From Natrarchaeobius halalkaliphilus (GTDB lineage: Archaea > Halobacteriota > Halobacteria > Halobacteriales > Natrialbaceae), in NCBI RefSeq assembly GCF_003841485.1, contig NZ_REFY01000001.1, positions 496,001 through 560,000 on the forward strand: a DNA stretch of 64,000 bases. Reading direction: 5' to 3'. Below are positions 116 to 13,090 of this stretch, piece by piece. A model generated the notes under the pieces. That model was not told the origin of the DNA and did no database searches. It saw only the letters and a list, made by a program, of their open reading frames with translations. Positions within the stretch are counted from its first letter, which is position 1, and each line of letters opens with the position of its first letter. The translations under genes and the position numbers were made by a program.

Positions 116-838
116 TCACAGATCTTCTTTCGAGAAAATCAACTGAGTGCTATTCGCTTCCAGCCACTCTGCGTGCTTCTTGTACTCTGGATCATGTTCT
201 GCAACCAGTGACCAGAACTCCTCCGAATGGTTTGACTCACGGAGGTGAGCGAGTTCGTGGACGACAATGTAATCAATTACGTCTTGCGGGGCCATCATTA
301 GTCGCCAATTCAATCCGAGGGTTCCCGTTGTTGAGCAACTCCCCCATTTAGTGCGTTGGTTCCGGATCTCGATCTGTTCGTATTCGACCCCCATCTCCGC
401 TGCATATTGATCGGCCCATTCCTCAAACCACTCTCGAGCCTTCCGCCGATACAGTGTTTCCAGAGCGCGTTTCACTGACGTATCTTCGACGTGGTGCTTT
501 GCCAATAGAAGTGTACCATCAGCAACGTCGGATGATGGACGCTTTTCGACTACGACTTCGTGTTGCTCCCCAAGATATGGAAACGTCTCACCCTCGTTGA
601 ACCGGCGTTCCGGAACCTGCTTCCGGTATGAATCGTACTTTCGATTCTTCTCGAGGACCCATGCCGCATTCTCTCGAAGTAGCTCTGGTGGTCGAGTCTC
701 CCCGGAATCCGGGATGACAACTGTGACTCCGTGTATGTCTACGTCTATTCGTGGCTCGGTTGCTTCGGAGCTGCAGCGGACAGTGTACTCAATGCTGTTT
801 CCCAACAGCTCAATCTCTCGAGATTCTGGGTCAGCCAT
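116..838 (-). CDS. YgjP/SprT-like zinc metallopeptidase (DUF45, M48-type)
   Basis: 240 aa. The zinc-protease motif HELAH is at residues 194-198, with a downstream acidic/His segment (ESNHSEEFW) that can supply the third ligand, and the family signature RTKWGSCS is at 162-169. This is the YgjP-like DUF45 family, which is repeatedly found at the end of type I restriction operons; its cellular substrate is not established. The start ATG at 838 overlaps the hsdR stop by 8 nt (831..838), so it is the last gene of the hsd operon and probably translated by coupling. A role in turning over or controlling the restriction complex is inference from the neighbourhood only. Confidence 0.85.
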   Translation of the reverse strand: MADPESREIELLGNSIEYTVRCSSEATEPRIDVDIHGVTVVIPDSGETRPPELLRENAAWVLEKNRKYDSYRKQVPERRFNEGETFPYLGEQHEVVVEKRPSSDVADGTLLLAKHHVEDTSVKRALETLYRRKAREWFEEWADQYAAEMGVEYEQIEIRNQRTKWGSCSTTGTLGLNWRLMMAPQDVIDYIVVHELAHLRESNHSEEFWSLVAEHDPEYKKHAEWLEANSTQLIFSKEDL

Positions 839-3821
839 GATTCTGCACGAGGTAGCCCCGAACAGTATCTACGAATTCGTCGTTAATCAGCTGACTGCAA
901 TCGTGGTTCACAACCAGTACATCCAACAGGATGTGTTCGATCTCAGAGATCGTCTGCTGGTTCGTCTTCCATCCGTTGTAATCACGATCGACCCGATCGC
1001 GGAACTGTGAAACGATTTCGCCTGCGATCGCTTCGGCGTGTTCCTCGGAATCGGTCGCGTCAGGCGTTTCCTCTGTGAGATGGGTATAGATCGCGAACTT
1101 GGCTTCCTCCATCCCTTGCTCCTCGGCTTCTTCTTCGACTCCCAATATCTCGTCTTCGACCGATTTCAGTGCTTCGACGGCTTCTGGGTCGCTTATTTCG
1201 TCTCCCTGCCAACGTTCGACTACGTCCGTGACACGCTCGCTGAGACGCTTGTAGCGCGGGTTTTGGTTCTCCCGAGGGTGCAAGTGTTCACGAGTTGCGT
1301 GGGCGATCTGAGACGCTTTCACGCCGGGGTTGTCTAATCCTTCTACGTCTTCGAGGTATTCTTCGCCGAGTTTGTACGTCGGAAAGTCTCGCTTGATCTC
1401 CCCGATTTCGACGTGATTCTCAATAATGTCGCGGGTCTTCTCGCGCATATCGTTTTCAGGGGCATCGTCGCCCGCTGTCGTGCGCTTGAACGCGACTTGA
1501 ATCCGATTGAGCCATTTGTACTGGCGGTCGATCCCCTCGCTGACGAGGCGTCCATCAGGTGCAACAGCTTCGTAGAGATTTTCGAGCCGTCGGAAGCCCT
1601 GCTTGAACTCGCGGCGTTCCGGATGCGTACTGATCCGCTCGACGGCTTCGTAGGTTGCTTCTTGGGTGTCGTCTTTCGGAATTCCATCGAAGATACCCAT
1701 GACCATCTCCACCTGGTCAACGAGGTCGTCGAACAGCTCATCCTTGTCACGGGCAGCGTAGGCTTTCGTCTCGGCGTCGTAGTCGAGTGCCTCGTCGATG
1801 TTCTCGAAGACGCCCTGGAAGTCCACGATCTCACCGTTCTCTTTGCCATCGGCAGGCCGGTTCGTTCGCGCGATCGCCTGCATGAGATTGTGGTTCTTCA
1901 GGTTCCGATCCAAATACATCGTTTTCAAAATCGGAGCATCGAAGCCCGTTAACAGCATGTTGTGGACGACCAGCAGTTTCGGTGTCGTCGTTTCGGCTTC
2001 CTCGTCGGTCTGTTTGAACGCTTTGACGATCTGATCGCGTTCTTCGGAATCTGTGTGGAACTGCTTGATCAGATCAGGATCATCGTTGGTCGCTGTGTAG
2101 AGAACTTCAACATCGTCCTCGCCACGTTTTTCGATGAGTCGCTCGCCGTACATCGCTGCTGATTCACGACTGGGTGTGACGACCATCCCCTTCCAGCTGT
2201 TTGGCGCAACGTGTTCGTCGTAGTGCTGATCGATTTCTTCGACGGCCCGATCGACTCGCGGTTCGATTTGTGCGAGTTCAATTGCAGTAACGCTTTGCCG
2301 GATCAGTTCACGTTTTTCGTCCGTCGTCTTGCCACGGAACTCGTGTTCGAACCGCTCATCAAGCCCCGCCTCGTCGATGTTCCACTCCATCTCGTGTCTG
2401 AGCGTGAAGTACACAGGGAGAATCAGGCCGTCATCAATGCCCTGTTTGACCGAGTAGCGGTGCAGATAGTCCTCGCCTTCAGGACAGAACTCGCGTAGTG
2501 TATTGCGTTTCGCCAGTTCCTTTGCATCGGATGCGTTGCGTTTTCCCTCTTGAACTGGTGTGCCGGTAAACCCGAAGTGGGAGGCCCCTTCGAGTGCACT
2601 GTCAAGCCGACTGCCAAGTCCGCCCTCCATGAATCGGTGGGCTTCGTCGGACATGACGATCGCCTCATCGTTGCCCTGTACGTCCGGATCGACGCTCTCG
2701 AATTTATGGATTGTCGTCAGAACAAGTTGGCTCTGGCCGTCCTCGATGAGTTCCTGAAGGTGATCGATGCTCTCGGCTTCCGTCCACTGCTCGAGAGTGA
2801 GGTTCGCCAGCTGGTCCCGCATCTGGCTGTTGAGCTTGTCCGTATCGACGATGATGAACACCTGTGGGTTACTGGCTACGTCGCGTGAGAGCAGGTTCTC
2901 AGCTGCGTAGAGCATCGTGAACGACTTGCCGGACCCCTGGGTGTGCCAGATCAGCCCCTTCTTGTGGATACCGTCGCGGACGCGATCGAGGATCGCATTC
3001 ACGGCGTAGTACTGCATATAGCGCGGGACGATCTTCGCGTCACCGCCAGCTCGTCGCTCGTAGAAAACGAAGTTCTTCAGCAGATCGAGGATCGTTTCGG
3101 GGTTGCACAACGCCTGTATCGCCTGCTTGTTCTCGTTGTCCTCGGCGTACTCTGGAGGTGCGTCGTTCCACGGTTCGTAGAACTCCTTCGGTGCGCCAAC
3201 GGCTCCGTAGCGCAGTTCCATCGTGTCGGCAGCGACGTTGAACAAGCCGGGGGTAAACAACCGGGGTATGTCGTCCTCGTAGGCCAAGAGATCCCTGACG
3301 GCGTCGTGCCAGTCGTTATCCTGCGTCGTCCCTTTCAGTTCCATCGTCACGATCGGAATCCCATTGACGAACAGGTTCACGTCCGGCCGGATCGTCGTGC
3401 CTCGAGAGACGGAGAACTGATTCACAGCGTGGAAAAGGTTGTTCTCGAGTACCTCGTGATCGATCAGATCGACGTAGACCGTCTCGGTTGAGCCGTCGTT
3501 GCGCTGGACCGAGAACGTCTTGCCCTTCGTGAGCAGCTGGTGGAACTCGCGGTTGCCATCCATCAGGTTCTCGGCATCGAGATCGCGTTTGAGCGAGGAA
3601 ATGAACTTCCCGACGTTATCCTCGGTAATTTCGTCGTTGAGTGAGATCACCTGTTCGGCCAGCAGGTTCCAGTAGACGACCTCGTTGCTTCGGCGATCAT
3701 AAGCGTCGTCGAGAACGTTCGCACCTCGACCACCGTCTTGACCGTGCGTTTCCCATCCGATGCCGTCGAGCCATGCGAGTAGCGATCGTTCGACTCCGGC
3801 TTCGGACGGGATGCTAACCAT
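831..3821 (-). CDS. hsdR: Type I restriction enzyme, R (motor/nuclease) subunit
   Basis: 996 aa, normal length for HsdR. The N-terminal nuclease domain shows the PD-(D/E)XK pattern with Asp147 and ELK at 161-163. The SF2 translocase follows with Walker A TQGSGKS at 294-300, a DEAH box (SDEAHR) and motif III FTGTP, then a helical C-terminal region that would dock on the methylase. It cuts DNA after ATP-driven translocation from an unmethylated recognition site. It overlaps hsdS upstream and the metallopeptidase downstream, 8 nt each. No frameshift or missing motif is seen, so the restriction arm looks functional. Confidence 0.95.
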   Translation of the reverse strand: MVSIPSEAGVERSLLAWLDGIGWETHGQDGGRGANVLDDAYDRRSNEVVYWNLLAEQVISLNDEITEDNVGKFISSLKRDLDAENLMDGNREFHQLLTKGKTFSVQRNDGSTETVYVDLIDHEVLENNLFHAVNQFSVSRGTTIRPDVNLFVNGIPIVTMELKGTTQDNDWHDAVRDLLAYEDDIPRLFTPGLFNVAADTMELRYGAVGAPKEFYEPWNDAPPEYAEDNENKQAIQALCNPETILDLLKNFVFYERRAGGDAKIVPRYMQYYAVNAILDRVRDGIHKKGLIWHTQGSGKSFTMLYAAENLLSRDVASNPQVFIIVDTDKLNSQMRDQLANLTLEQWTEAESIDHLQELIEDGQSQLVLTTIHKFESVDPDVQGNDEAIVMSDEAHRFMEGGLGSRLDSALEGASHFGFTGTPVQEGKRNASDAKELAKRNTLREFCPEGEDYLHRYSVKQGIDDGLILPVYFTLRHEMEWNIDEAGLDERFEHEFRGKTTDEKRELIRQSVTAIELAQIEPRVDRAVEEIDQHYDEHVAPNSWKGMVVTPSRESAAMYGERLIEKRGEDDVEVLYTATNDDPDLIKQFHTDSEERDQIVKAFKQTDEEAETTTPKLLVVHNMLLTGFDAPILKTMYLDRNLKNHNLMQAIARTNRPADGKENGEIVDFQGVFENIDEALDYDAETKAYAARDKDELFDDLVDQVEMVMGIFDGIPKDDTQEATYEAVERISTHPERREFKQGFRRLENLYEAVAPDGRLVSEGIDRQYKWLNRIQVAFKRTTAGDDAPENDMREKTRDIIENHVEIGEIKRDFPTYKLGEEYLEDVEGLDNPGVKASQIAHATREHLHPRENQNPRYKRLSERVTDVVERWQGDEISDPEAVEALKSVEDEILGVEEEAEEQGMEEAKFAIYTHLTEETPDATDSEEHAEAIAGEIVSQFRDRVDRDYNGWKTNQQTISEIEHILLDVLVVNHDCSQLINDEFVDTVRGYLVQNHG

Positions 3822-5205
3822 GTTGTGCGATTTCGTCGGGCACCGCTATGTTAGTGTCGGCCGTTCTTACTGTTCCCGAAAGGAGGTCTTGCATAAGACC
3901 TTGCTTGAGGCATTGGAGGCGAGTTTTATATTGATGCTCTCTATCGATTGACTCCGTTATTGAGGAAACACTCTCGACAATTCGTTGTTGTTCCTCAATT
4001 GGTGGAACAGCGACTCTCAATTTCCTAAGTGCACCGAGGTTGAAGTGTTTTTGAGCCAGTCCCGCTTGGAAGCGATCTATTTGCTTTCTTCCTGCCCGCG
4101 AATTGATCCACATTGCGGCGTAGTGTGGGTCAAGGTTATCTCCTGGCGTTGAAATTAGCAGATCGGCACAGTTTGAACCATCAAACTCAGGTGAAACTAC
4201 GCACGAAAGCCCAGGCTCTCCCGATCGAACCGTAATAACATCGCCTGCCTCTAATTGGCTATTCGAATTTTCTTCATTCGATTCTTGAGTCATATACTCA
4301 AAATCCCCATTAACGATGCCATCTCGAGAAATGTCTTTTGAGCGAAGAATGGGGACTTCTCCTGCTTCGTCATAGTACTGAGTAGGCTTGACAACGATAC
4401 CAACTGAGGAATCCGAAATCAATTCACTGTATGGTTGAACAACCCAATCTTCCGGGACTTCATCAACCCAACTACTTTTGTATTCAATATTTTCCTCTGA
4501 CCGTAACGACCCGTCCTCAAGAATCCCCCTTGAAAGCAAATCTTGCTCTGTTCCTCGTCGGACCATCTCCAATTTGTCAATGATTTCCTCGGTCTTCTCT
4601 ATCGCTTGGTCAACGGTGTAGAGGATGGTGGCGATTTTGCGCTGTTCGGGGAGTGGTGGATATGGGATTAAGAGATTACCATACTCTTGGGCATTGATGT
4701 TTGGTTGTGCACCTGTTCGCTGTATTCTGGCAACCCAGCTGTCATAGTTCGGTGAATCTGTGTATTGATAGAGAAATTCTGGATTTGCCAAATCTGTATT
4801 TATATGGTGGTTTATAAGATACCCAGCATAAACACAGTCGCCATCCTGCTGGCGATACAAGTACGTCTTCCCGACAGACGCACCACTACGAGCGAATAGA
4901 AGGTTACCTTTTTTAAGTAGATACCCATCCGCTTTCTCTTTCGACAAACTAACTTTTGTATGTGATTTCAATCGGCCACGGGTGTTAATGTCTGTTATGC
5001 GGACATAACGTGGATTTCCGGGGTCAAAATCCTCCGCTGATTCAGCGGCCCCGTAGTTTGATTCATGTATAACATCTTTGAGCCTGACTTGTTGCCAGTC
5101 CTTAGGAATTTCTCCCAGGGAAGTCTCATCAAGGCTCGACCTCACCTCATCGGATTCTATCGAAGTACCTTCCGAGATTTCGTCAAGTGTCCGCTGTTCA
5201 CTCAT
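3814..5205 (-). CDS. hsdS: Type I restriction-modification specificity subunit
   Basis: 463 aa with the classic two-repeat plan. An N-terminal target recognition domain is followed by a central conserved helix starting at the PLPEQRKIA segment; a second recognition domain is followed by a second conserved helix starting at PIEEQQRIV. Each recognition domain reads half of a bipartite DNA target; the target cannot be predicted from sequence. The recognition domains are noticeably more AT-rich than hsdM and hsdR, as is usual for domains exchanged by recombination. The ATG overlaps the hsdM stop by 8 nt. Confidence 0.93.
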   Translation of the reverse strand: MSEQRTLDEISEGTSIESDEVRSSLDETSLGEIPKDWQQVRLKDVIHESNYGAAESAEDFDPGNPRYVRITDINTRGRLKSHTKVSLSKEKADGYLLKKGNLLFARSGASVGKTYLYRQQDGDCVYAGYLINHHINTDLANPEFLYQYTDSPNYDSWVARIQRTGAQPNINAQEYGNLLIPYPPLPEQRKIATILYTVDQAIEKTEEIIDKLEMVRRGTEQDLLSRGILEDGSLRSEENIEYKSSWVDEVPEDWVVQPYSELISDSSVGIVVKPTQYYDEAGEVPILRSKDISRDGIVNGDFEYMTQESNEENSNSQLEAGDVITVRSGEPGLSCVVSPEFDGSNCADLLISTPGDNLDPHYAAMWINSRAGRKQIDRFQAGLAQKHFNLGALRKLRVAVPPIEEQQRIVESVSSITESIDREHQYKTRLQCLKQGLMQDLLSGTVRTADTNIAVPDEIAQHG

Positions 5206-6700
5206 AGTTCAATGCCTCCATATGCTGACTCATCTGAGACTCGATCGCGTCCCGCTCATCTTGCAACTCACGCAATTTTGCCAGTTCCTCCTTTACGTTG
5301 ATCTCCTCCTCGGGCTCAGTCGTATCCACGTAGAGCGCAATATTCAGGTTGTAGTCGTTCTCTTTGATCTCCTCGATCGACACCGTCCGACTCACACGCT
5401 CCTCGGTCGTCCAGTTGCGGAAGTTCTCGACGATGTGGTCGAGTCCCCCCTCGGTGAGTTCGTTCTGGTTCGATAACTCCTCGTAGAACGCTTCGTCGGC
5501 AGCGTGGATGAACTGCACCTCCCCCTCACGCTCGGCAGGCTTGTCAGTATTCAACACGAGGACAGCAGAGGGAATCGAGTTGTTTTGGAACAAATTCTCT
5601 GGCAGCCCAACGATCGCCTCGACCATATCCGCCTCCAGCATCGGCTTCCGATACCGACTTTCGTGCTTACGGAACAGCACACCGTGTGGAATGACTATCG
5701 CCGCCTTCCCGCCGTTTCCATCTTTTTCGGGCGTCTTCAACTGTTTCGCCATATGCATAATGAAGGCGAAATCACCCCGATCGGCTCGAGGCAGTTTCTC
5801 ATGCCAGTCGAACCGGTCGTACGGATCGTCCTGTAGACCGTCCTTGTCCCAATTTGCCGAGAACGGGAAGTTGGCAAGAACCCGATCGAACCGCGTGAGT
5901 TCGTTGTCGTCCTCATTGGTGAACGCTGGGTTCGAAAGCGAATCCTCGCGCTCAATGGTCCCGTTCAATCCGTGAATAGATAGGTTCATTCTGGCGATCG
6001 CCGCAATATCGGGGTTGATTTCCTGGCCAGTGAACGTCAGCTTCGCAGGATCGCCGTCTTGTTCTTCGAGGTAGTACCGTGCGGCCTCAGTTAGCATCCC
6101 GCCGGAACCGACGGTGGGATCGTGGAAGGTGTGGCCGTCCTCAAACTCATCGACGAGTCGTACGCACAGGTTGACGATGTGGGGCGGCGTGAAGAACTGC
6201 CCGCCGGACTTGCCTTCTTCCTCTGCAAAGTGGCGCACCAGGTCCATGTACGCCTCTCCGAGCATGTCCGGCGGGATGCTGTCCCGATCGAGATCGTACT
6301 TGTTGAGGTGCTCAACCAGTTTGCCGAGCCGATCGTCGTCCAGTGCGTCGGCGTCAATGTAGTCCGCGCGAAAGAGACCCTTCAGGCTGGGGTTTTCTTC
6401 GGTCAATGCCTCGAACGCTTCGTTCAGAGCTTGGTCAACGTTGTCGCTAACCGATCGGAGATCGTCCCATAGGTAGCCCTCGGGAACAACTGGAATGTCG
6501 TAGAGGTTTTGTCGGCGAGCAAAGTCCTCGCCGTATTCGTCAACGTTCTCGGCGTACTGTTTCTCGAACTCGTCAGAGATCGACTTGTAGTAGACGAGTG
6601 GCAGGATATACTCCTTGTAGTCGGTCGGGTCAACGGCGTCCCGAATTATATCAGCACACTCAAACAGGTGTGATTCCAGTTTATCCGGCGAGAGAGTCAT
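5198..6700 (-). CDS. hsdM: Type I restriction-modification N6-adenine methyltransferase subunit
   Basis: 500 aa from the ATG at 6700; an in-frame TTG two codons upstream is a weaker start. An N-terminal HsdM helical domain precedes the methylase domain, which has FFTPPHIV, SAM-binding motif I DPTVGSGGM at about 194-202 and the catalytic motif IV. Motif IV reads NFPF (about 277-280) where the family consensus is NPPF/Y, so one proline is replaced. First gene of the hsdM-hsdS-hsdR-peptidase operon; it methylates the HsdS target and is also part of the restriction complex. Promoter presumably lies in the gap 6707-6833 shared with the divergent kwaA-like gene. Confidence 0.94.
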   Translation of the reverse strand: MTLSPDKLESHLFECADIIRDAVDPTDYKEYILPLVYYKSISDEFEKQYAENVDEYGEDFARRQNLYDIPVVPEGYLWDDLRSVSDNVDQALNEAFEALTEENPSLKGLFRADYIDADALDDDRLGKLVEHLNKYDLDRDSIPPDMLGEAYMDLVRHFAEEEGKSGGQFFTPPHIVNLCVRLVDEFEDGHTFHDPTVGSGGMLTEAARYYLEEQDGDPAKLTFTGQEINPDIAAIARMNLSIHGLNGTIEREDSLSNPAFTNEDDNELTRFDRVLANFPFSANWDKDGLQDDPYDRFDWHEKLPRADRGDFAFIMHMAKQLKTPEKDGNGGKAAIVIPHGVLFRKHESRYRKPMLEADMVEAIVGLPENLFQNNSIPSAVLVLNTDKPAEREGEVQFIHAADEAFYEELSNQNELTEGGLDHIVENFRNWTTEERVSRTVSIEEIKENDYNLNIALYVDTTEPEEEINVKEELAKLRELQDERDAIESQMSQHMEALNYE

Positions 6701-6833
6701 ACCCAATCAAATTTATCCAAAGCACATAGAGTTCATGGTAATAGGCTGAGCGCCATCGACAATTTGAAACGAAAACGGATTCTGTTCGAAAACATAGATA
6801 AGAACGAATTCCGCTCATAGAGGAGATACAGGG

Positions 6834-7451
6834 ATGGTACAATTTGGATTGTTGGTCAAGCTAACACTGTTTTTGAGTTCTTATGTTCCTCTGTTCATTA
6901 TACTATCAATTGAACTCAGTTCCAGACAACCAATTATTTGGGGCGATATTGAACTCCCTCTTGTTTCAGTTGGGTTTGATATTTCGTTGGCCAGTATTAT
7001 TCTTCTTGCTTCCTCTATTCTGCTCATCCTCGTCCTAATGTTCATAATATGGCACCACAGTGGCCATCGAACAGAAGATTGGCGGTGTGACCATTTCAAA
7101 CAACGAAACGAACTCCTTTCGAGTTATCTCCTGGCTTATGTCTTCGTATTTATAGGGTTGAACTTCTCTGATTTGGGTGATTGGCTAATATTGATTTTGT
7201 TTCTCGGGATGTTAGCGGTACTCCAAATGAATTCAGAGATGCTGCATGTGAACCCAATTCTGGGATTAGGGGGGTACAGAGTGTATGAAGTAGAGAGTAA
7301 GAACCAGACGTTGTTAGTTATCTCTCGAGATGACATTAGGGAAAGTATAAAAATCCCTGAATCACAAAGGGGTGTCAAGGAACCAGAGTATCGAAATATC
7401 GAAATAATTCAGCTTGGCCCAAACACCTACATGACCTCTCACGACCAATGA
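6834..7451 (+). CDS. kwaA: KwaA-like four-helix membrane protein (Kiwa defence system)
   Basis: 205 aa. Four hydrophobic helices are evident at about 6-27, 51-73, 95-111 and 116-132, followed by a soluble tail with NPILGLGGYRVYEV at about 140-153. Kiwa is a known two-gene antiphage system in which KwaA is a four-helix membrane protein that senses infection at the envelope and KwaB is the cytoplasmic partner. Size, topology and the KwaB-like gene directly downstream (ATGA overlap at 7448-7451) fit. A GGAG ribosome-binding site lies 8 nt before the ATG. The gene is much more AT-rich than the chromosome, indicating transfer. The call depends mostly on the partner gene; I could not align it to a reference KwaA. 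Confidence 0.68.
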   Translation: MVQFGLLVKLTLFLSSYVPLFIILSIELSSRQPIIWGDIELPLVSVGFDISLASIILLASSILLILVLMFIIWHHSGHRTEDWRCDHFKQRNELLSSYLLAYVFVFIGLNFSDLGDWLILILFLGMLAVLQMNSEMLHVNPILGLGGYRVYEVESKNQTLLVISRDDIRESIKIPESQRGVKEPEYRNIEIIQLGPNTYMTSHDQ

Positions 7452-8416
7452 CTACTCAAAATGATGCGGCTGACACCCTAAAGAACGCACGTGAATTTGT
7501 CCAAGGAAACACCTCTACTGATTATTTATTAGTACACAAACGGGAAACTGGTCCGGAAATTCAAACACTGGAATTTCGAAAAACAGTCCAGAACGAACTT
7601 GAAAAGCTGTTTGCAGACGTACTTACGAGCTATATCGATAAAGTTCGTGATGGGTCGGTTGGGATCCGCAACCTGAGTGCTATAAATACAGTTACAGATG
7701 AATCGTTGATTCAGCATGCAACTATAGATGAGTTGCCAGATACTGAGTTATTCAGATCACTTACTTCGGATTCCACGTATCCAACAACAAAATACGATAA
7801 GAATGATCCACCGGACTTCCAGTTGATAAAGGTATCAGATGGGAAGAAGCACTTAATCGGTATTCAAAACCACCGATCACTCAAAACTTATGACGCCTCG
7901 AAAAGTGGCATTCCCCTACTGTATAGAGATGCGGTCTATTCCAAATTTGAGAGCGATTTACTGATAGTGCCAGAAGCACTGAATGCGATTTATTTTGAAG
8001 ATCAGCTCTTTGTGATGACTCCAAAATCTTTCGAAAAGATGTTTGAGATGCGAGACGAATATGAACAAAAAGCTGAAACAGTAATCAGCAATTTTGAGGA
8101 CTCTGGCATCCGATTTTCGAAATCCAAAATCACGGACGACTGGATGATAAACGGAGACATTCGTGTGTTGAGGAAACTATACACTGTACACGAAAATGAA
8201 ATCCCAACATACGCGACACCTGATCGTATTAAAATGGTTATTGACAAGTATGATATTGAAGTTCAATACCGGAAGAAAAATGGGTTTATTGAACTTGATA
8301 TAGAGGAGTACACGGATATATGGAAGTTACTTCGACTTCTCAATTCAGACTACGCTGAGGCAGAGCTAATTCCTGACGCGCGCTTGGAAATTGAGAGCAA
8401 ACGAATCATGGACTGA
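7448..8416 (+). CDS. kwaB: KwaB-like protein (DUF4868; Kiwa defence system)
   Basis: 322 aa, close to the roughly 315 aa of known KwaB. The order of conserved-looking blocks (an N-terminal helical part, a central segment with IVPEALNAIYFEDQLFVMTP near 175-195 and a C-terminal RKLYTVHENEIP segment) matches my memory of the DUF4868 family, where the middle block reports that a protein is a KwaB. In characterised Kiwa, KwaB associates with KwaA and binds DNA to block late phage transcription and replication. ATG overlaps the kwaA stop by 4 nt. AT-rich like its partner. Family assignment is from pattern memory, not alignment. Confidence 0.68.
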   Translation: MTTQNDAADTLKNAREFVQGNTSTDYLLVHKRETGPEIQTLEFRKTVQNELEKLFADVLTSYIDKVRDGSVGIRNLSAINTVTDESLIQHATIDELPDTELFRSLTSDSTYPTTKYDKNDPPDFQLIKVSDGKKHLIGIQNHRSLKTYDASKSGIPLLYRDAVYSKFESDLLIVPEALNAIYFEDQLFVMTPKSFEKMFEMRDEYEQKAETVISNFEDSGIRFSKSKITDDWMINGDIRVLRKLYTVHENEIPTYATPDRIKMVIDKYDIEVQYRKKNGFIELDIEEYTDIWKLLRLLNSDYAEAELIPDARLEIESKRIMD

Positions 8417-8538: not shown

Positions 8539-9732
8539 ATGGACTCGGATGAGGTGGCGGAGTACGTTGAGCGGTCACAACAGTTGCTCGAGGCCTCTCC
8601 ACAAATGAACGAGCAGAACACCAAAGTTCGACTCGTTCAACCGCTGCTCGAACTTCTCGGATGGGATCTGTATTCAACAGAGGTTGAACTTGAGTACACG
8701 GTTCCGATGGCATCTGGAAGTACACATGTTGACTACGCCCTTCTCGTCGGTGACTCTCCGGTTGTCTTTGTCGAAGCAAAAGCGGCCAGTTCGGGCCTTA
8801 GTTCACAGCACGTCACACAGCTCAAGAGCTACATGCGACAGGAACTCGATGTAGACTGGGGTATTCTCACCAACGGGAAGGAGTTCGAGGTTCTCACAAA
8901 GGATCAGTATAGCAACGATGGAGAGGAGGTATCGGTGGTACAATTCGATCTTGACGATCTCGCCGAGAACCCGGATGTGCTGGAGTTGCTTTCAAAGGAG
9001 GCGATCCGGTCTGGGAAGGCGGATGAGATTGCTGGTCAGGTAGCGCAGACGAACGAGGCGATCCGGTATCTCAACCAGAACGAGGACGACGTAACAGAGA
9101 CAGTGAGTTCGGCAGTCGAGAGCGAACTCGGAGAAGTCCCGCTGGATTTGGACGAACAGTCTCGAGATTTCGTTCAGAATCTGGCTTCTGCGCTTCAGGA
9201 GCAACGTCAGTTCGTTAGCGAAGATCCGCCAGCTGGAACCGATGAACCACCACCGAGTCCACCAAGAGAAGAACCAGATGAGGATGGTGAACTACAGCCT
9301 CGTCAGAACAAAGTCGTCGGAACCATTACTCGTGACGAGATCGATGGTGACGAAGATGCAACAGTCGCAGTCTATGCTTCTAAAGAATCTGGTCTCACTT
9401 TTTTGAAGGAGAACGCAGCATGGGCCTTCGTCAGGGTGGGGCGAGATATGGATTACATTGCGATGTATATCACAGGCGGTGAGAGCGTAGTCAAATACTT
9501 CGCAGAGGTTGATGAGATTGTAGATCCGGAGGAAGCAGACTTAGAGCGTGATCCGTTAGATTATCTGGATAGGGATTACGTTGGGGAAGGGAAGAAAGTG
9601 ATTAAATTTCAAAATCATACGTTCTACGAACTGGAGGATCCGATACCATTTGAATCTAAGTATCCTCAATCTCGCCGTGATACGACGCTTGGTAAGCTGA
9701 GAGAGGCAGAGACAACTGACGACCTCTTTTAG
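8539..9732 (+). CDS. PD-(D/E)XK nuclease-like protein with HsdR N-terminal-type domain
   Basis: 397 aa from the ATG at 8539; an in-frame TTG at 8515 is less likely because the family-like N-terminus starts at MDSDEVAEYV. Residues 25-110 form an HSDR_N-type fold: NEQNTKVRLVQPLLELLGW, then Asp65 and E79-x-K81 as the nuclease triad. A proline/acidic linker at about 230-260 leads to a C-terminal domain of about 130 aa (AWAFVRVGRDMDYIAMYITG and following) that resembles EVE/ASCH-like modules used by some restriction enzymes to read modified bases; that last link is tentative. Lies directly after the Kiwa pair, same strand, 122 nt gap. Probably a solitary defence nuclease, unproven. Confidence 0.72.
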   Translation: MDSDEVAEYVERSQQLLEASPQMNEQNTKVRLVQPLLELLGWDLYSTEVELEYTVPMASGSTHVDYALLVGDSPVVFVEAKAASSGLSSQHVTQLKSYMRQELDVDWGILTNGKEFEVLTKDQYSNDGEEVSVVQFDLDDLAENPDVLELLSKEAIRSGKADEIAGQVAQTNEAIRYLNQNEDDVTETVSSAVESELGEVPLDLDEQSRDFVQNLASALQEQRQFVSEDPPAGTDEPPPSPPREEPDEDGELQPRQNKVVGTITRDEIDGDEDATVAVYASKESGLTFLKENAAWAFVRVGRDMDYIAMYITGGESVVKYFAEVDEIVDPEEADLERDPLDYLDRDYVGEGKKVIKFQNHTFYELEDPIPFESKYPQSRRDTTLGKLREAETTDDLF

Positions 9733-9855
9733 TCACTTAGAGAGTGGGTCTTGATTTGAGTAGCCCAGGAAATAGCGATTCTGAGTTTCACGAAGCGATC
9801 TGATCAGCGGACGATCGTTCCCTTAGGTCTGGTCGGAAAACCCTTCTGACGAGCC

Positions 9856-10332
9856 GTGAGATCCGAAGAAACTCGGAACGTGAGTGGACAGAGTCTCGGA
9901 CTCGGGAACTTTGAGAGGAATCTCAAGGCAATCCCTAACGGTTTTACCCGACAGGAGATTTGCTCTGCCATGGGAGCATCTGACTGGGCTGGACGCATGG
10001 TGGAACAACTTGAAGATGAATTTGGAACCGCTGAGAAACGTAATCTTCGGATCACAGCGTTAGTGCGTTGGTTCGCTTCTGATCCGGAATATGAGGGACT
10101 CTTTGACGGGAACAGACAAGAGGAACAACACGAATGGAGTCTGCTCACTGACGATCTACCCAGCGTTCTTCGAGAGCAACCCGGCAGCACAATCGAAGAA
10201 AGGTGGAATAACCTCATGCTCGAGTTGGAATACCAGGAGATCGTAGAAGGCGGAGTCTATCTGAATCCTTGGGAACAATTCGATAAAGAGACGTATGACC
10301 CAGATGTGACCCACGACTGGGACGGTAGTTGA
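9856..10332 (+). CDS. Hypothetical island protein
   Basis: 158 aa with GTG start (a second GTG lies at 9880). No family recognised. It contains a helical stretch at about 28-75 (FTRQEICSAMGASDW) that could be a helix-turn-helix, but the match is not strong. The C-terminus carries WNNLMLELEYQEIVEGGVYLNPW, reminiscent of small winged-helix ends. Composition is acidic and haloarchaeal, and the frame has no competing recognised gene. Same strand as the nuclease-like gene upstream, 123 nt away, so it could belong to the same defence unit. Confidence 0.6.
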   Translation: MRSEETRNVSGQSLGLGNFERNLKAIPNGFTRQEICSAMGASDWAGRMVEQLEDEFGTAEKRNLRITALVRWFASDPEYEGLFDGNRQEEQHEWSLLTDDLPSVLREQPGSTIEERWNNLMLELEYQEIVEGGVYLNPWEQFDKETYDPDVTHDWDGS

Positions 10333-10533
10333 TGAGCTGAATCCCTGCACTTCTCGAGGGACAGCTCTCGATCGGGGTGAAAAAACCTGTTCCTGAGGAT
10401 GTTCGGGGAGATTCGACTACTGTCCGATCAATCCCTTCGGACTGACCCAGAAATGCCGGTAGCAAGTCATGGGAGCCGGGAAAAGTCGCTTGCTGAAAGT
10501 ATAGAGTCCAGACTACCCATGGAGATCACTGTG

Positions 10534-10565
10534 AAGGTCCGCTGAATCGCGGACCTTGAATTTTT
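10534..10565 (+). terminator. Perfect 9-bp hairpin followed by T5
   Basis: AAGGTCCGC (10534-10542), loop TGAATC, GCGGACCTT (10549-10557), then GAA and TTTTT (10561-10565). The shape is that of an intrinsic terminator or a stable 5' leader hairpin. It ends one base before the next ATG (10567), an unusual place for either. The preceding 200 bases (10333-10533) show no gene. Confidence 0.55.
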
Positions 10566-10566
10566 C

Positions 10567-11001
10567 ATGATGGAACTAATCTCCGACGCGGCGGACCAGA
10601 TCGACCCAGTGAACGCCGACCTCGAGGTAATTGGAATTCCTGGTGGGATTGGAAAGGAGTTGGAAGACTACGCGATTGAAGGTGCCCACGTTCGGGGCGC
10701 TCGTTACATGAACACCATGTCGGGCACCGATATTGGAATCAACTCCAAGCCAAAGCGGGTCTACCTGCAACCAACGATCTGCTTGGGAGAGGGCGAGGAC
10801 GCGGAGATGGTAGACGTAATCAGTTTCGAGGAATTGTCGGCGCTTCCAGCTGAGTATAGATCGGATCTGAAGATCGACGCGGCGGCCATGACTAACAAGC
10901 TGATTGAGAAGCCCCTGGATGAGATCCTGCAAGCGGTGGGCGTTGATACCAAGGCGGCCATAAAAGGCCAATCTCAGACCGGACTGGCGGCCTTCATGTG
11001 A
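10567..11001 (+). CDS. Hypothetical virus/plasmid-like protein
   Basis: 144 aa; two adjacent in-frame ATGs (10567, 10570). Not recognised. It shows a Rossmann-like beginning (VIGIPGGIGKELEDYAIEGA) and a regular acidic composition. No ribosome-binding site precedes the start because a hairpin and T-tract run up to it, so the true start may be leaderless or further in (ATGs near residues 48-51). It opens the run of small genes at 10.5-14.1 kb that looks like haloarchaeal virus or plasmid cargo. Function unknown. Confidence 0.55.
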   Translation: MMELISDAADQIDPVNADLEVIGIPGGIGKELEDYAIEGAHVRGARYMNTMSGTDIGINSKPKRVYLQPTICLGEGEDAEMVDVISFEELSALPAEYRSDLKIDAAAMTNKLIEKPLDEILQAVGVDTKAAIKGQSQTGLAAFM

Positions 11002-11003
11002 TT

Positions 11004-11165
11004 ATGACGAACAAGAAAGGAAGATTCGCAAAGTGCTACGGTTGTAACGATCGGAAAATGTTGTACCCGGAATACAAGTTGTTCAAAGATTGGTATTGCT
11101 ATTCGTGTTACTGTGACGATAGCGTAATAAAGGAAATGGACGCTTCGGATATGACGTGGGTGTAG
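11004..11165 (+). CDS. Small zinc-finger protein (53 aa)
   Basis: Starts with ATG two bases after the preceding stop and ends at TAG 11163-11165. Two cysteine pairs, CYGC and CYSC, lie about 22 residues apart (residues 11-14 and 32-35), a typical zinc ribbon, with a basic N-terminus MTNKKGRFAKC. Such tiny CxxC proteins are abundant in haloarchaeal viruses and plasmids. Tight spacing suggests cotranscription with the gene upstream. Role unknown; nucleic-acid or protein binding is inference from the fold. Confidence 0.6.
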   Translation: MTNKKGRFAKCYGCNDRKMLYPEYKLFKDWYCYSCYCDDSVIKEMDASDMTWV

Positions 11166-11235
11166 TTTACTCACATTGTCACACCCAATTGTACCCGCGC
11201 AATCATTTATGGACAGTGCTGTGCTGGACCACACT

Positions 11236-11472
11236 ATGAATTCGCAAGAACTCACACATCTTCATGCGTTGCTGTACGAGGTGCGCGTCGAACTCGAGGA
11301 CCAGGACAAGGTACCTGCTGGGGCGTTCTCGGAATATGATTCGAAAAACGTTCGTCCGGATTACATCCACCGTCCTCAAGACGCGCACGAAGATGGGATT
11401 CGCCTATTGCTAAAGGGCATCCGACACTCAATAAAGCGCGATCCACCGCCGGAAAAGGAGATGACAATGTAA
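11236..11472 (+). CDS. UPF0058 family protein
   Basis: 78 aa from the ATG at 11236; the frame extends upstream to 11176 but the family's N-terminus starts at MNSQELTHLHALLYEV. The conserved LHALL and the later IHRPQDAHEDGI segment, with paired histidines likely to bind metal, match UPF0058, a small archaeal helical family common in haloarchaea and their viruses. No biochemical function is established. Part of the same-strand run of small genes in the island. Confidence 0.75.
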   Translation: MNSQELTHLHALLYEVRVELEDQDKVPAGAFSEYDSKNVRPDYIHRPQDAHEDGIRLLLKGIRHSIKRDPPPEKEMTM

Positions 11473-11494
11473 TATCAATCATCACGTCAATATT

Positions 11495-11674
11495 ATGACG
11501 CCCACTTTTGAGGAGGAGCTGGATCAAAGTAGCATAAGTGCCGTCGTGATAGAAAACCCATACTCGGCCAACGAGTGCGTTCTGTATCCATCAAACGCAA
11601 CGGACGAAAAACTGGAAACGATGTGGGTTCTTGCGAAGGACGGTGATTACACCTGCTTAGAAGATATGCAGTAA
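11495..11674 (+). CDS. Small haloarchaeal protein, DUF7511-like
   Basis: 59 aa, ATG at 11495 to TAA at 11674. The pattern of an N-terminal beta strand (SAVVIENPYSANECVLYP) followed by a Trp-containing strand (METMWVLA-like) and a C-terminal CLEDMQ fits the short DUF7511 proteins that I recall from haloarchaea, typically 55-70 aa. Function unknown. Follows UPF0058 by 22 nt on the same strand and is probably in the same transcript. Confidence 0.6.
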   Translation: MTPTFEEELDQSSISAVVIENPYSANECVLYPSNATDEKLETMWVLAKDGDYTCLEDMQ

Positions 11675-11700
11675 CAGAGCGACGAGCGAACTGACTATAA

Positions 11701-11865
11701 TTCCCAAACTGGGAATACCACTGGCCGATCATCAAATCGAGCCTTCGCTCCGATCAGCCAGAATCTGAAGAATCGGATCAGATAGAGTCTCAACAGCGGG
11801 AAGCGGCGGACGAACAACCCACCCCGCAGGGTGGCGGGCAGACCTTACTCGGAGAATTCCAATGA
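11701..11865 (+). pseudogene. C-terminal relic of a lost gene
   Basis: An open frame directly after a TAA (11698-11700) encodes a 54-residue peptide with a convincing protein C-terminus: FPNWEYHWPI, then an acidic Gln/Glu-rich linker, then PQGGGQTLLGEFQ and TGA. It has no ATG, GTG or TTG anywhere in frame. The TGA overlaps the ATG of the DUF4326 gene as ATGA, the arrangement of coupled operon genes. I infer a deleted upstream gene whose tail is left behind. Confidence 0.4.
11794..11809 (+). repeat. 16-nt direct repeat, copy 1
   Basis: CAGCGGGAAGCGGCGG; identical copy at 13245-13260. The copies flank the DUF4326 and transglycosylase-like genes. Copy 1 lies inside the gene relic, encoding QREAA. 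Confidence 0.6.
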
Positions 11866-12188
11866 CAACAGAGAGAGTCCACAAGTCGGAACCGCACGAT
11901 GTGTATATCGGTCGCGGTCAGAACGGTGAGACGAACATGGGCGGCGTCCCGATCGGCGTGACCGGGTGGCTGGGCAACCCTTACAAGGAGTCTCACTACG
12001 GACGCGAGAAGTGTATCGAGCTATTCGAACGCGATCTCGGTTGGATGGTCGAGGGCAACCCAGTTTTCCGGGCGAAGTTGGTGAGTCTGTACGGAAAGAC
12101 GTTGGGCTGCTACTGCTTCGATCACCAGGAGTGCCACGGTGACGTAATCGTTTCCAAGATCAACGAGCTGTACCTGGAGTCTCTATGA
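11862..12188 (+). CDS. DUF4326 domain protein
   Basis: 108 aa. Family marks are YIGRG at 15-19, GWLGNPY at 35-41 and the C-terminal metal-site-like LGCYCFDHQECHGDVI (Cys83, Cys85, Cys91, His92). DUF4326 is widespread in phages and archaeal viruses; the Cys/His cluster suggests a bound metal. The ATG overlaps the TGA of an upstream relic, and the stop overlaps the ATG of the next gene (12185), so it is translationally tied to the transglycosylase-like protein. A joint role in base modification is my inference. The exact reaction of DUF4326 is unknown to me. Confidence 0.85.
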   Translation: MTTERVHKSEPHDVYIGRGQNGETNMGGVPIGVTGWLGNPYKESHYGREKCIELFERDLGWMVEGNPVFRAKLVSLYGKTLGCYCFDHQECHGDVIVSKINELYLESL

Positions 12189-13090
12189 GTGTCCCGGCGT
12201 CGGCCCGTTACAATCCTACGGGACAGAACGTGGACGTAATCTCCACGGTCAACGGTGGCGAGGAAGCGTCGTGGGCGATCTATCGCGGTGGTGGTCTGGT
12301 CGGGATGGAAAGCGACAACACCCGGCCACCCGCCGACGTTCCGATTGATTTCGTGGACTGGCCGTTCTCGAAAGACGGTGAGCAATCGTTCGAGGACCAC
12401 CTACAGGTCGTGAAAGAGGAAAAGCCGATGTACGCGGTCGCTCCGGACGTTGAGAACGGGCGAGATGTTTCCACTGTTCTTGAGTACGCCGATCAGTTAG
12501 ACTCGCACGCGGGCGTTGTAATTGTCGTCCCCAAGGACGCGCACCCCGAGGACGTGGGTGACGATTATCGCATTGGAATTCCGTGCCAGGATCGGTTCGG
12601 CGGCGTGCCGTGGTCGATCTGGGAGTACCGGAATTGCGAACAGGTTCACCTACTCGGTGGCAGCCCGGTTCGTCACGCCGACTTCAAGCACTACGTGAAC
12701 GTCCGGTCGGTGGACACGGCGTCGATCGTGAAGGCTGCGTACCGTGGTGGATTCTGGAACGAGGGCGGTTGGCACAAAGACACTCTCGGATTCTACGGGT
12801 CGCTCGAGGCCAGCATTGATGGGATGAACCGATTCTGGAACGGTGGCGTTTCGGTGTTCGGGCAGGAGAGGGCGCGGGCGCTTCCCGCTGGTACCGAACT
12901 CCCGGAACAGGAACGCGAGGAATTGCTGACCCGTGGGGAGATCCCCGATCGGTGGTTACACATCAAGTATCCGATAGAGTTGGAAGCGATTGAAGATCAG
13001 ATTGACCCGAACGAGAATCCGTGGCCGCCAAGCGATACGTTGGGTGATGGCGATCGAGTTCCGTTTCCGGGTCGGGCAGCGTTCTACTGA
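12185..13090 (+). CDS. Transglycosylase-like protein, candidate DpdA-type 7-deazaguanine DNA transglycosylase
   Basis: 301 aa. A barrel-like series is visible: YAVAPDVENG (Asp88), VVIVVPK (111-117), the YRIGIPCQDRFGG block (128-140), CEQVHLLGGSP (151-161) and RSVDTAS (174-180, Asp177). The order of an APD motif, a strand ending in a GGS turn and an SVD-T motif parallels phage TGT-like proteins that insert preQ0-type bases into DNA, in which two aspartates are catalytic. A DpdA subfamily restricted to archaeal viruses has been described (DpdA4); whether this is a member needs alignment. It may be the family recorded as DUF6610. Coupled to DUF4326 (ATGA-type overlap). A Trp-rich C-terminal half is unexplained. 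Confidence 0.5.
   Translation: MSVPASARYNPTGQNVDVISTVNGGEEASWAIYRGGGLVGMESDNTRPPADVPIDFVDWPFSKDGEQSFEDHLQVVKEEKPMYAVAPDVENGRDVSTVLEYADQLDSHAGVVIVVPKDAHPEDVGDDYRIGIPCQDRFGGVPWSIWEYRNCEQVHLLGGSPVRHADFKHYVNVRSVDTASIVKAAYRGGFWNEGGWHKDTLGFYGSLEASIDGMNRFWNGGVSVFGQERARALPAGTELPEQEREELLTRGEIPDRWLHIKYPIELEAIEDQIDPNENPWPPSDTLGDGDRVPFPGRAAFY

Follow-up and report, generated by a model that had tools for sequence, protein, structure and literature searches.

Two overlapping genes of Natrarchaeobius halalkaliphilus raise the question of whether they encode an enzyme that exchanges bases in DNA, and whether their products act together. The genes lie at positions 11862-13090 of the window, the whole 64,000-nucleotide stretch that was analyzed (contig NZ_REFY01000001.1, forward-strand positions 496,001 to 560,000). 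An earlier note, made from the letters of this DNA, had read them as a coupled DNA base-modification module consisting of a DUF4326 gene and a transglycosylase-like gene. With a probability of roughly 70%, we infer that the second gene encodes a divergent DNA guanine transglycosylase, a member of the superfamily of tRNA-guanine transglycosylases (TGT) and DpdA that exchanges bases in DNA.

The gene pair and its surroundings

Both open reading frames were recovered at the positions given in the earlier note, including their 4-nt overlap, in which the ATG start of the DUF6610 frame and the TGA stop of the DUF4326 frame share the letters ATGA. The features of the locus were as follows:

Within 831-8413, minus strand: HsdR, HsdS and HsdM type I restriction-modification genes, upstream of the gene pair
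10567..11001, plus strand: family-B DNA polymerase (PolB) stub, the C-terminal 143 of 854 residues of an HF2-type viral PolB
11176..11472, plus strand: UPF0058 small protein, located after the PolB stub and before DUF4326 (PF01893, E 7.8e-11)
11862..12188, plus strand: DUF4326 protein of 108 aa (Pfam PF14216, E 5.6e-15)
12185..13090, plus strand: DUF6610 protein of 301 aa, a predicted TGT/DpdA-type transglycosylase (Pfam PF20314, E 8.1e-61)

The Hsd genes adjoin a plus-strand pair consisting of a 205-aa membrane-like ORF and KwaB (Kiwa), and an HSDR_N protein was also present upstream of the gene pair. The 831-8413 region is a defence island. The PolB stub aligned with residues 711-853 of HF2 PolB at 42% identity (tblastn, E 5e-24) and matched the phrog_262 DNA polymerase (E 6.7e-10), and there was no other PolB match within the window. 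In the DUF6610 tree, the window copy fell in a PolB-linked viral clade. We therefore read it as a provirus remnant, a viral gene stranded in the defence island beside the PolB stub. No DNA-level similarity to phages was detected for window positions 9000-12200, so that the case for a provirus origin is made by protein matches; a search for attachment-site markers (tRNA, Rfam elements) found none. What this adds for the window itself is modest: a viral gene stranded in a defence island, its reading frame (12185-13090) still intact.

The 108-aa protein scored 56.2 bits against a DUF4326 cut-off of 25, and conservation analysis showed that it retains GNP, C83-x-C85 and C91-H92-G-D94. Its predicted structure (pLDDT 91.5) had no PDB match below E 4, and RapZ and a NADAR protein gave its highest VIA score, a Z of 3.0, so that no confident fold match emerged. 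The Cys/His cluster, which the earlier note had called metal-site-like, looks instead like a DUF488-type C...CH motif. Published proposals make DUF4326 a relative of the rhodanese-phosphatases with ADP-ribose derivatives as substrates, and predict that its domains connect NAD+/ADP-ribose systems to DNA modification (PMC9503650, PMC7824862). This predicted link, together with the 4-nt gene overlap, would suit a single module in which DUF4326 supplies or tailors the modified base. Such a module is nevertheless highly improbable: the DNA of the virus HVTV-1 is modified without any DUF4326 gene, none of 49 DUF6610 records contained DUF4326, and 391 haloarchaeal genomes included 20 with DUF4326 as opposed to 140 with DUF6610. 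Where a genome had both, they lay on different contigs in every case but the window's own genome (G000) among the matches listed. DUF4326 was accordingly rejected as a conserved partner of DUF6610, given its absence from the 49 records and its genomic separation among the matches listed; the coupling read from the overlap did not hold up, and DUF4326 most likely travels as a passenger independent of DUF6610.

Family, predicted fold and catalytic positions of the 301-aa protein

The 301-aa protein belongs to DUF6610 (PF20314), which it matched over profile positions 1-198 of 198 with 205.6 bits against a curated cut-off of 27. Among PHROG profiles at E<=1, only phrog_16059 (E 8.3e-89) and phrog_23010 matched, and phage DpdA1 (phrog_887) did not. 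The Pfam TGT family (PF01702) likewise gave no match at E<=1, and the protein is not filed as a member of it. A search of the PDB with the sequence itself returned nothing, as did profile searches with A1 and A3, and BLASTP against CAjan DpdA gave no meaningful match. The C-terminal zinc site of tRNA-type TGTs (C-x-C-x2-C...H) is missing from the 301-aa sequence, as it is from CAjan DpdA.

By tblastn, Hafunaviridae (HF1/HF2-type haloviruses) contain full-length homologues that are 42-44% identical across 95% of the length, and there are weaker ones in the Druskaviridae HCTV-1, HCTV-5, HCTV-16, HVTV-1 and HVTV-2. Scanning viral contigs with the single sequence yielded nothing; an IMG/VR profile search with an alignment as query yielded 52 further loci. 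The 140 haloarchaeal genomes with DUF6610, about a third of those sampled, represented 54 of 86 genera and carried up to 6 copies each. The literature searched contained no mention of DUF6610 or PF20314.

Ten positions were near-invariant over 94 homologous ORFs: D58, P81, D88, P116, H155, L157, G158, G159, P161 and D177. D177 was kept in 93 of the sequences, D88, H155, L157 and G158 in 92 each, and D58 in 91. The motifs singled out by the earlier note, D88 in APDVENG, D177 in SVDTAS and the HLLGGSP turn (residues 155-161), are all present in the protein, and their near-invariance argues against chance. Both of its aspartates are thus conserved; a third, D58, at the general-acid position, had been omitted.

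An AlphaFold model built with a 40-sequence alignment had a mean pLDDT of 80.3, exceeding 90 over most of residues 31-220, and a pTM of 0.75. It showed a (beta/alpha)8 barrel, with eight strands alternating with helices in order; the structure prediction proposed in the earlier note thus gave a TGT-like barrel. A Foldseek search of the PDB ranked tRNA-guanine transglycosylase 2z1v first (E 8.3e-5), and TGTs made up most of the top rows. Comparing the model with a viral library returned HCTV-1 gp64 (E 6e-13) as well as queuine tRNA-ribosyltransferases of phages, among them the Mufasa8 enzyme. VIA gave a Z of 12.4-12.8 over 219 residues for TGT, with PdxJ and class II aldolases tying on Z, so that what the fold by itself establishes is a TIM barrel, not specifically a TGT. 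These ties are one reason to consider that the barrel acts on some other substrate (a nucleotide, sugar phosphate or tRNA) and resembles TGT merely as a TIM barrel.

The register and spacing of the motifs, which match those of TGT, speak against such a different substrate. In the model, D58 and D177 close strands 56-58 and 173-177, respectively; D88 comes after strand 83-85 and HLLGGSP after strand 154-157. The host arcTGT has D93 (TDSGSFQ), D128 (VDIPTPP), H227-P234 (HLFGAGHP) and D249 (FDSAA), which we take, from the established TGT mechanism, to belong to strands 3, 4, 7 and 8, respectively. The matched positions were D58/D93, D88/D128, HLLGGSP/HLFGAGHP and D177/D249. By position in the model, D177 would be the equivalent of the nucleophile, D88 the base-recognition Asp after strand 4, and D58, which closes strand 3, the predicted general acid/base. 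The DSG-x-F flank of TGT is loosely kept in DUF6610 as D-x-x-F/W.

Profile comparison pointed in the same direction. With hhalign, DUF6610 aligned to a TGT+DpdA profile with a score of 29.8 (P 0.005), pairing VHILGGSP...VDTAS with VHLFGAGHP...FDSAA across strands 7-8. In the hhalign alignments, the DUF6610 turn fell against HLFGAGHP/HAFG, and D177 in the stretch that holds the catalytic Asp. The controls scored 16.6 (best of 150 column shuffles), 12.8 (reversed profile) and 15.7 (TrpA, a TIM barrel, near the shuffles), and global mode produced no alignment. In absolute terms the significance was weak (P 0.005-0.1, probability <=7%), a modest value that would also suit another substrate; the TrpA control argues the other way, and we regard the signal as absolutely weak but specific. 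The 301-aa protein very probably belongs to the TGT superfamily.

If it is indeed a DNA guanine transglycosylase, D177 would attack C1' of the target deoxyguanosine with release of guanine, and a 7-deazaguanine base would bind where D88 and the HLLGGSP turn mark the pocket before being joined to the sugar, with D58 acting as general acid/base in the exchange. The host genome encodes QueC and arcTGT, and preQ0 genes were absent among the island ORFs examined. Because the island has no preQ0 genes of its own, the incoming base for the window enzyme would be preQ0 from the host archaeosine pathway. In viruses, the exchanged base would protect the DNA from host restriction.

Gene neighbourhoods of DUF6610 relatives

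Genome context is the strongest evidence for a link between DUF6610 and 7-deazaguanine. HVTV-1 gp69 and HCTV-1 gp64 are DUF6610 proteins by Pfam (E 2.7e-56 and 6.9e-61, respectively), and in both viruses the gene begins 1-2 nt after FolE, within a QueE/QueD/QueC/QueF cluster. HVTV-1 DNA contains dPreQ1 at ~30% of G; in 2019 no viral DpdA was recognised, and modification of this DNA by a host DpdA was the authors' proposal (PMC6884629). By sequence and gene position, gp69 is a virus-encoded candidate for dPreQ1 insertion and would fill the missing-DpdA gap in HVTV-1.

Similar arrangements were found elsewhere. In Mycobacterium phage Funsized, the order is ParB-DUF6610 (overlapping QueF), QueF, DpdA, QueC, QueD, QueE and FolE. 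The annotation of Funsized gene 1 (L120, 1-1299) is solely that of a ParB-like nuclease, and we found its C-terminal DUF6610 domain. Record L073 has the order DUF6610, ParB-like gene, YhhQ-type transporter (Vut_1) and QueF; record L060 has three overlapping genes, GNAT, QueF and DUF6610, at 5091-6516; and on a chromosome (G289, locus L005) QueF overlaps DUF6610. In keeping with these contexts, the barrel and the catalytic residues in register, the transglycosylase guess of the earlier note is supported.

The usual partner of DpdA is the ParB-like DpdB (PMC6392294, PMC12839542), and in Mufasa8, phiFN37 and Finch a ParB-like gene lies beside canonical DpdA. Given its ParB-like and que neighbours, DUF6610 occupies the place otherwise held by DpdA. 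A different role could be envisaged, in which DUF6610 is a TGT-fold partner, like ParB-type DpdB or eukaryotic QTRT2, that targets or activates a separate transglycosylase, either a viral DpdA or the host arcTGT/DpdA. The Funsized operon, which encodes the ParB-DUF6610 fusion as well as a canonical DpdA (matched by phrog_887), is consistent with this, as is the host DpdA proposed for HVTV-1 DNA in 2019 (PMC6884629). We consider a partner role unlikely, since the three aspartates and HxLGGSP are near-invariant, as expected of a catalyst, and since Que-bearing DUF6610 records other than Funsized were without canonical phrog_887 DpdA (HVTV-1, HCTV-1, L060, L073 and L080, where virus contigs may be fragments). 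In record L080, a viral contig, two DUF6610-like genes lie ~5 kb apart, at 11275-12036 (minus strand) and 5875-6660 (plus strand); the second is very divergent (Pfam E 0.004), and QueC is found elsewhere in the record.

In the tree, preQ-linked DUF6610 members were scattered, a pattern that an ancestral 7-deazaguanine chemistry would produce. Most viral DUF6610 records had neither QueF nor QueC, which would fit a barrel with another substrate. That several phylogenetically separate lineages place DUF6610 directly beside preQ0/preQ1 enzymes argues to the contrary, and we think another substrate quite improbable. Base exchange in DNA remains the preferred reading.

The extent of such exchange may differ among branches. 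The HF1/HF2-type viruses, the clade nearest to the window copy, had no QueF or QueC. In 49 kb of HF2 (L268, 28000-77000), 47 of the 64 6-mer palindromes were absent and their total was 0.08 of expectation (12-fold avoidance), compared with 0.40 of expectation (2.5-fold avoidance) over 74 kb of HVTV-1 (L041/L267). Palindrome avoidance has also been reported previously (PMC7230728). GATC was absent from the stretches of both viruses analyzed, so palindrome avoidance does not preclude modification. These counts nevertheless make it unlikely that HF2 DNA is heavily protected, and modification in the branch of HF2 and the window copy could be sparse, conditional or absent. The literature searched gave no clear answer on the resistance of HF1/HF2 DNA to restriction enzymes.

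Other members of the family were joined to further enzymes. GNAT-DUF6610 fusions occurred on viral contigs (L083, 5245-6516; L092, 5572-6645), along with a fusion in the reverse order (L087, 5602-6927) and a GNAT-DUF6610-C5 cytosine methylase fusion (L069, 5404-7893). The GNAT-QueF-DUF6610 genes of L060 are a candidate for an operon that makes an acylated preQ1 base in DNA, and this operon and the GNAT fusions lead us to predict N-acylated preQ1 in DNA. We suggest, tentatively, that DUF6610 is an unrecognised branch of DNA transglycosylases extending beyond archaeal viruses, some of which may take part in making an undescribed DNA base, in which preQ1 is first placed in the DNA and its aminomethyl group is N-acylated afterwards. 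The haloarchaeal chromosomal and plasmid copies are ~333 aa long, with a Cys-rich C-terminus and common neighbourhoods. One protein family recurred within a few kb of DUF6610 at 7 of 12 sampled haloarchaeal loci, and the member tested matched the ArdC N-terminal domain. At haloarchaeal loci L142-L151, the recurrent neighbours were an ArdC-like anti-restriction protein, a SWIM zinc-finger protein and DUF6166.

Comparison with known systems

HVTV-1 gp69 and HCTV-1 gp64 (Druskaviridae, phrog_23010) share the DUF6610 motifs and archaeal tailed-virus origin of the window protein; they differ in length (386-387 aa, with a ~110-residue N-terminal extension), are ~25% identical to it, and sit inside a full preQ0-QueF operon, whereas the window copy does not. 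HF2 NP_542551 and its Hafunaviridae orthologues (phrog_16059) belong to the same clade as the window copy and adjoin viral PolB. The HF2 gene is part of a whole virus, whereas in the window only a PolB stub precedes the DUF6610 gene, which comes after DUF4326.

Phage DpdA (CAjan/9g, phrog_887) and the TGT of archaea and bacteria (PF01702) have in common with DUF6610 the TIM barrel, the aspartates of strands 3, 4 and 8, and an H-x-x-G turn after strand 7. Phage DpdA also has a ParB-like neighbour and a preQ0 operon context, as in DUF6610 relatives. DUF6610 differs from both in having no direct sequence-family match to them, D-x-x-F/W in place of DSG, and no tRNA-type zinc site. BRC systems combine GNAT and TGT components (PMC12839542), and GNAT is likewise fused or adjacent to DUF6610 in L069, L083, L092, L087 and L060; these cases are on virus contigs, unlike BRC, and are likened to it by the pairing of GNAT with a TGT-like protein.

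The analysis offers a testable function for an uncharacterised family found in haloarchaeal genomes and HF1/HF2-type haloviruses, and it names gp69 as a viral candidate for the dPreQ1 enzyme of HVTV-1, a question left from 2019. Fusions with GNAT, ParB and methylase domains suggest that there are more such DNA bases, some of which may be undescribed; we did not find a description of these fusions or of the wider distribution of DUF6610. Judged by its gene context, HVTV-1 gp69 is probably the DpdA4 of Cui et al. 2023. DUF6610 would then be of a known kind, the DNA transglycosylases, and probably the published DpdA4 branch.
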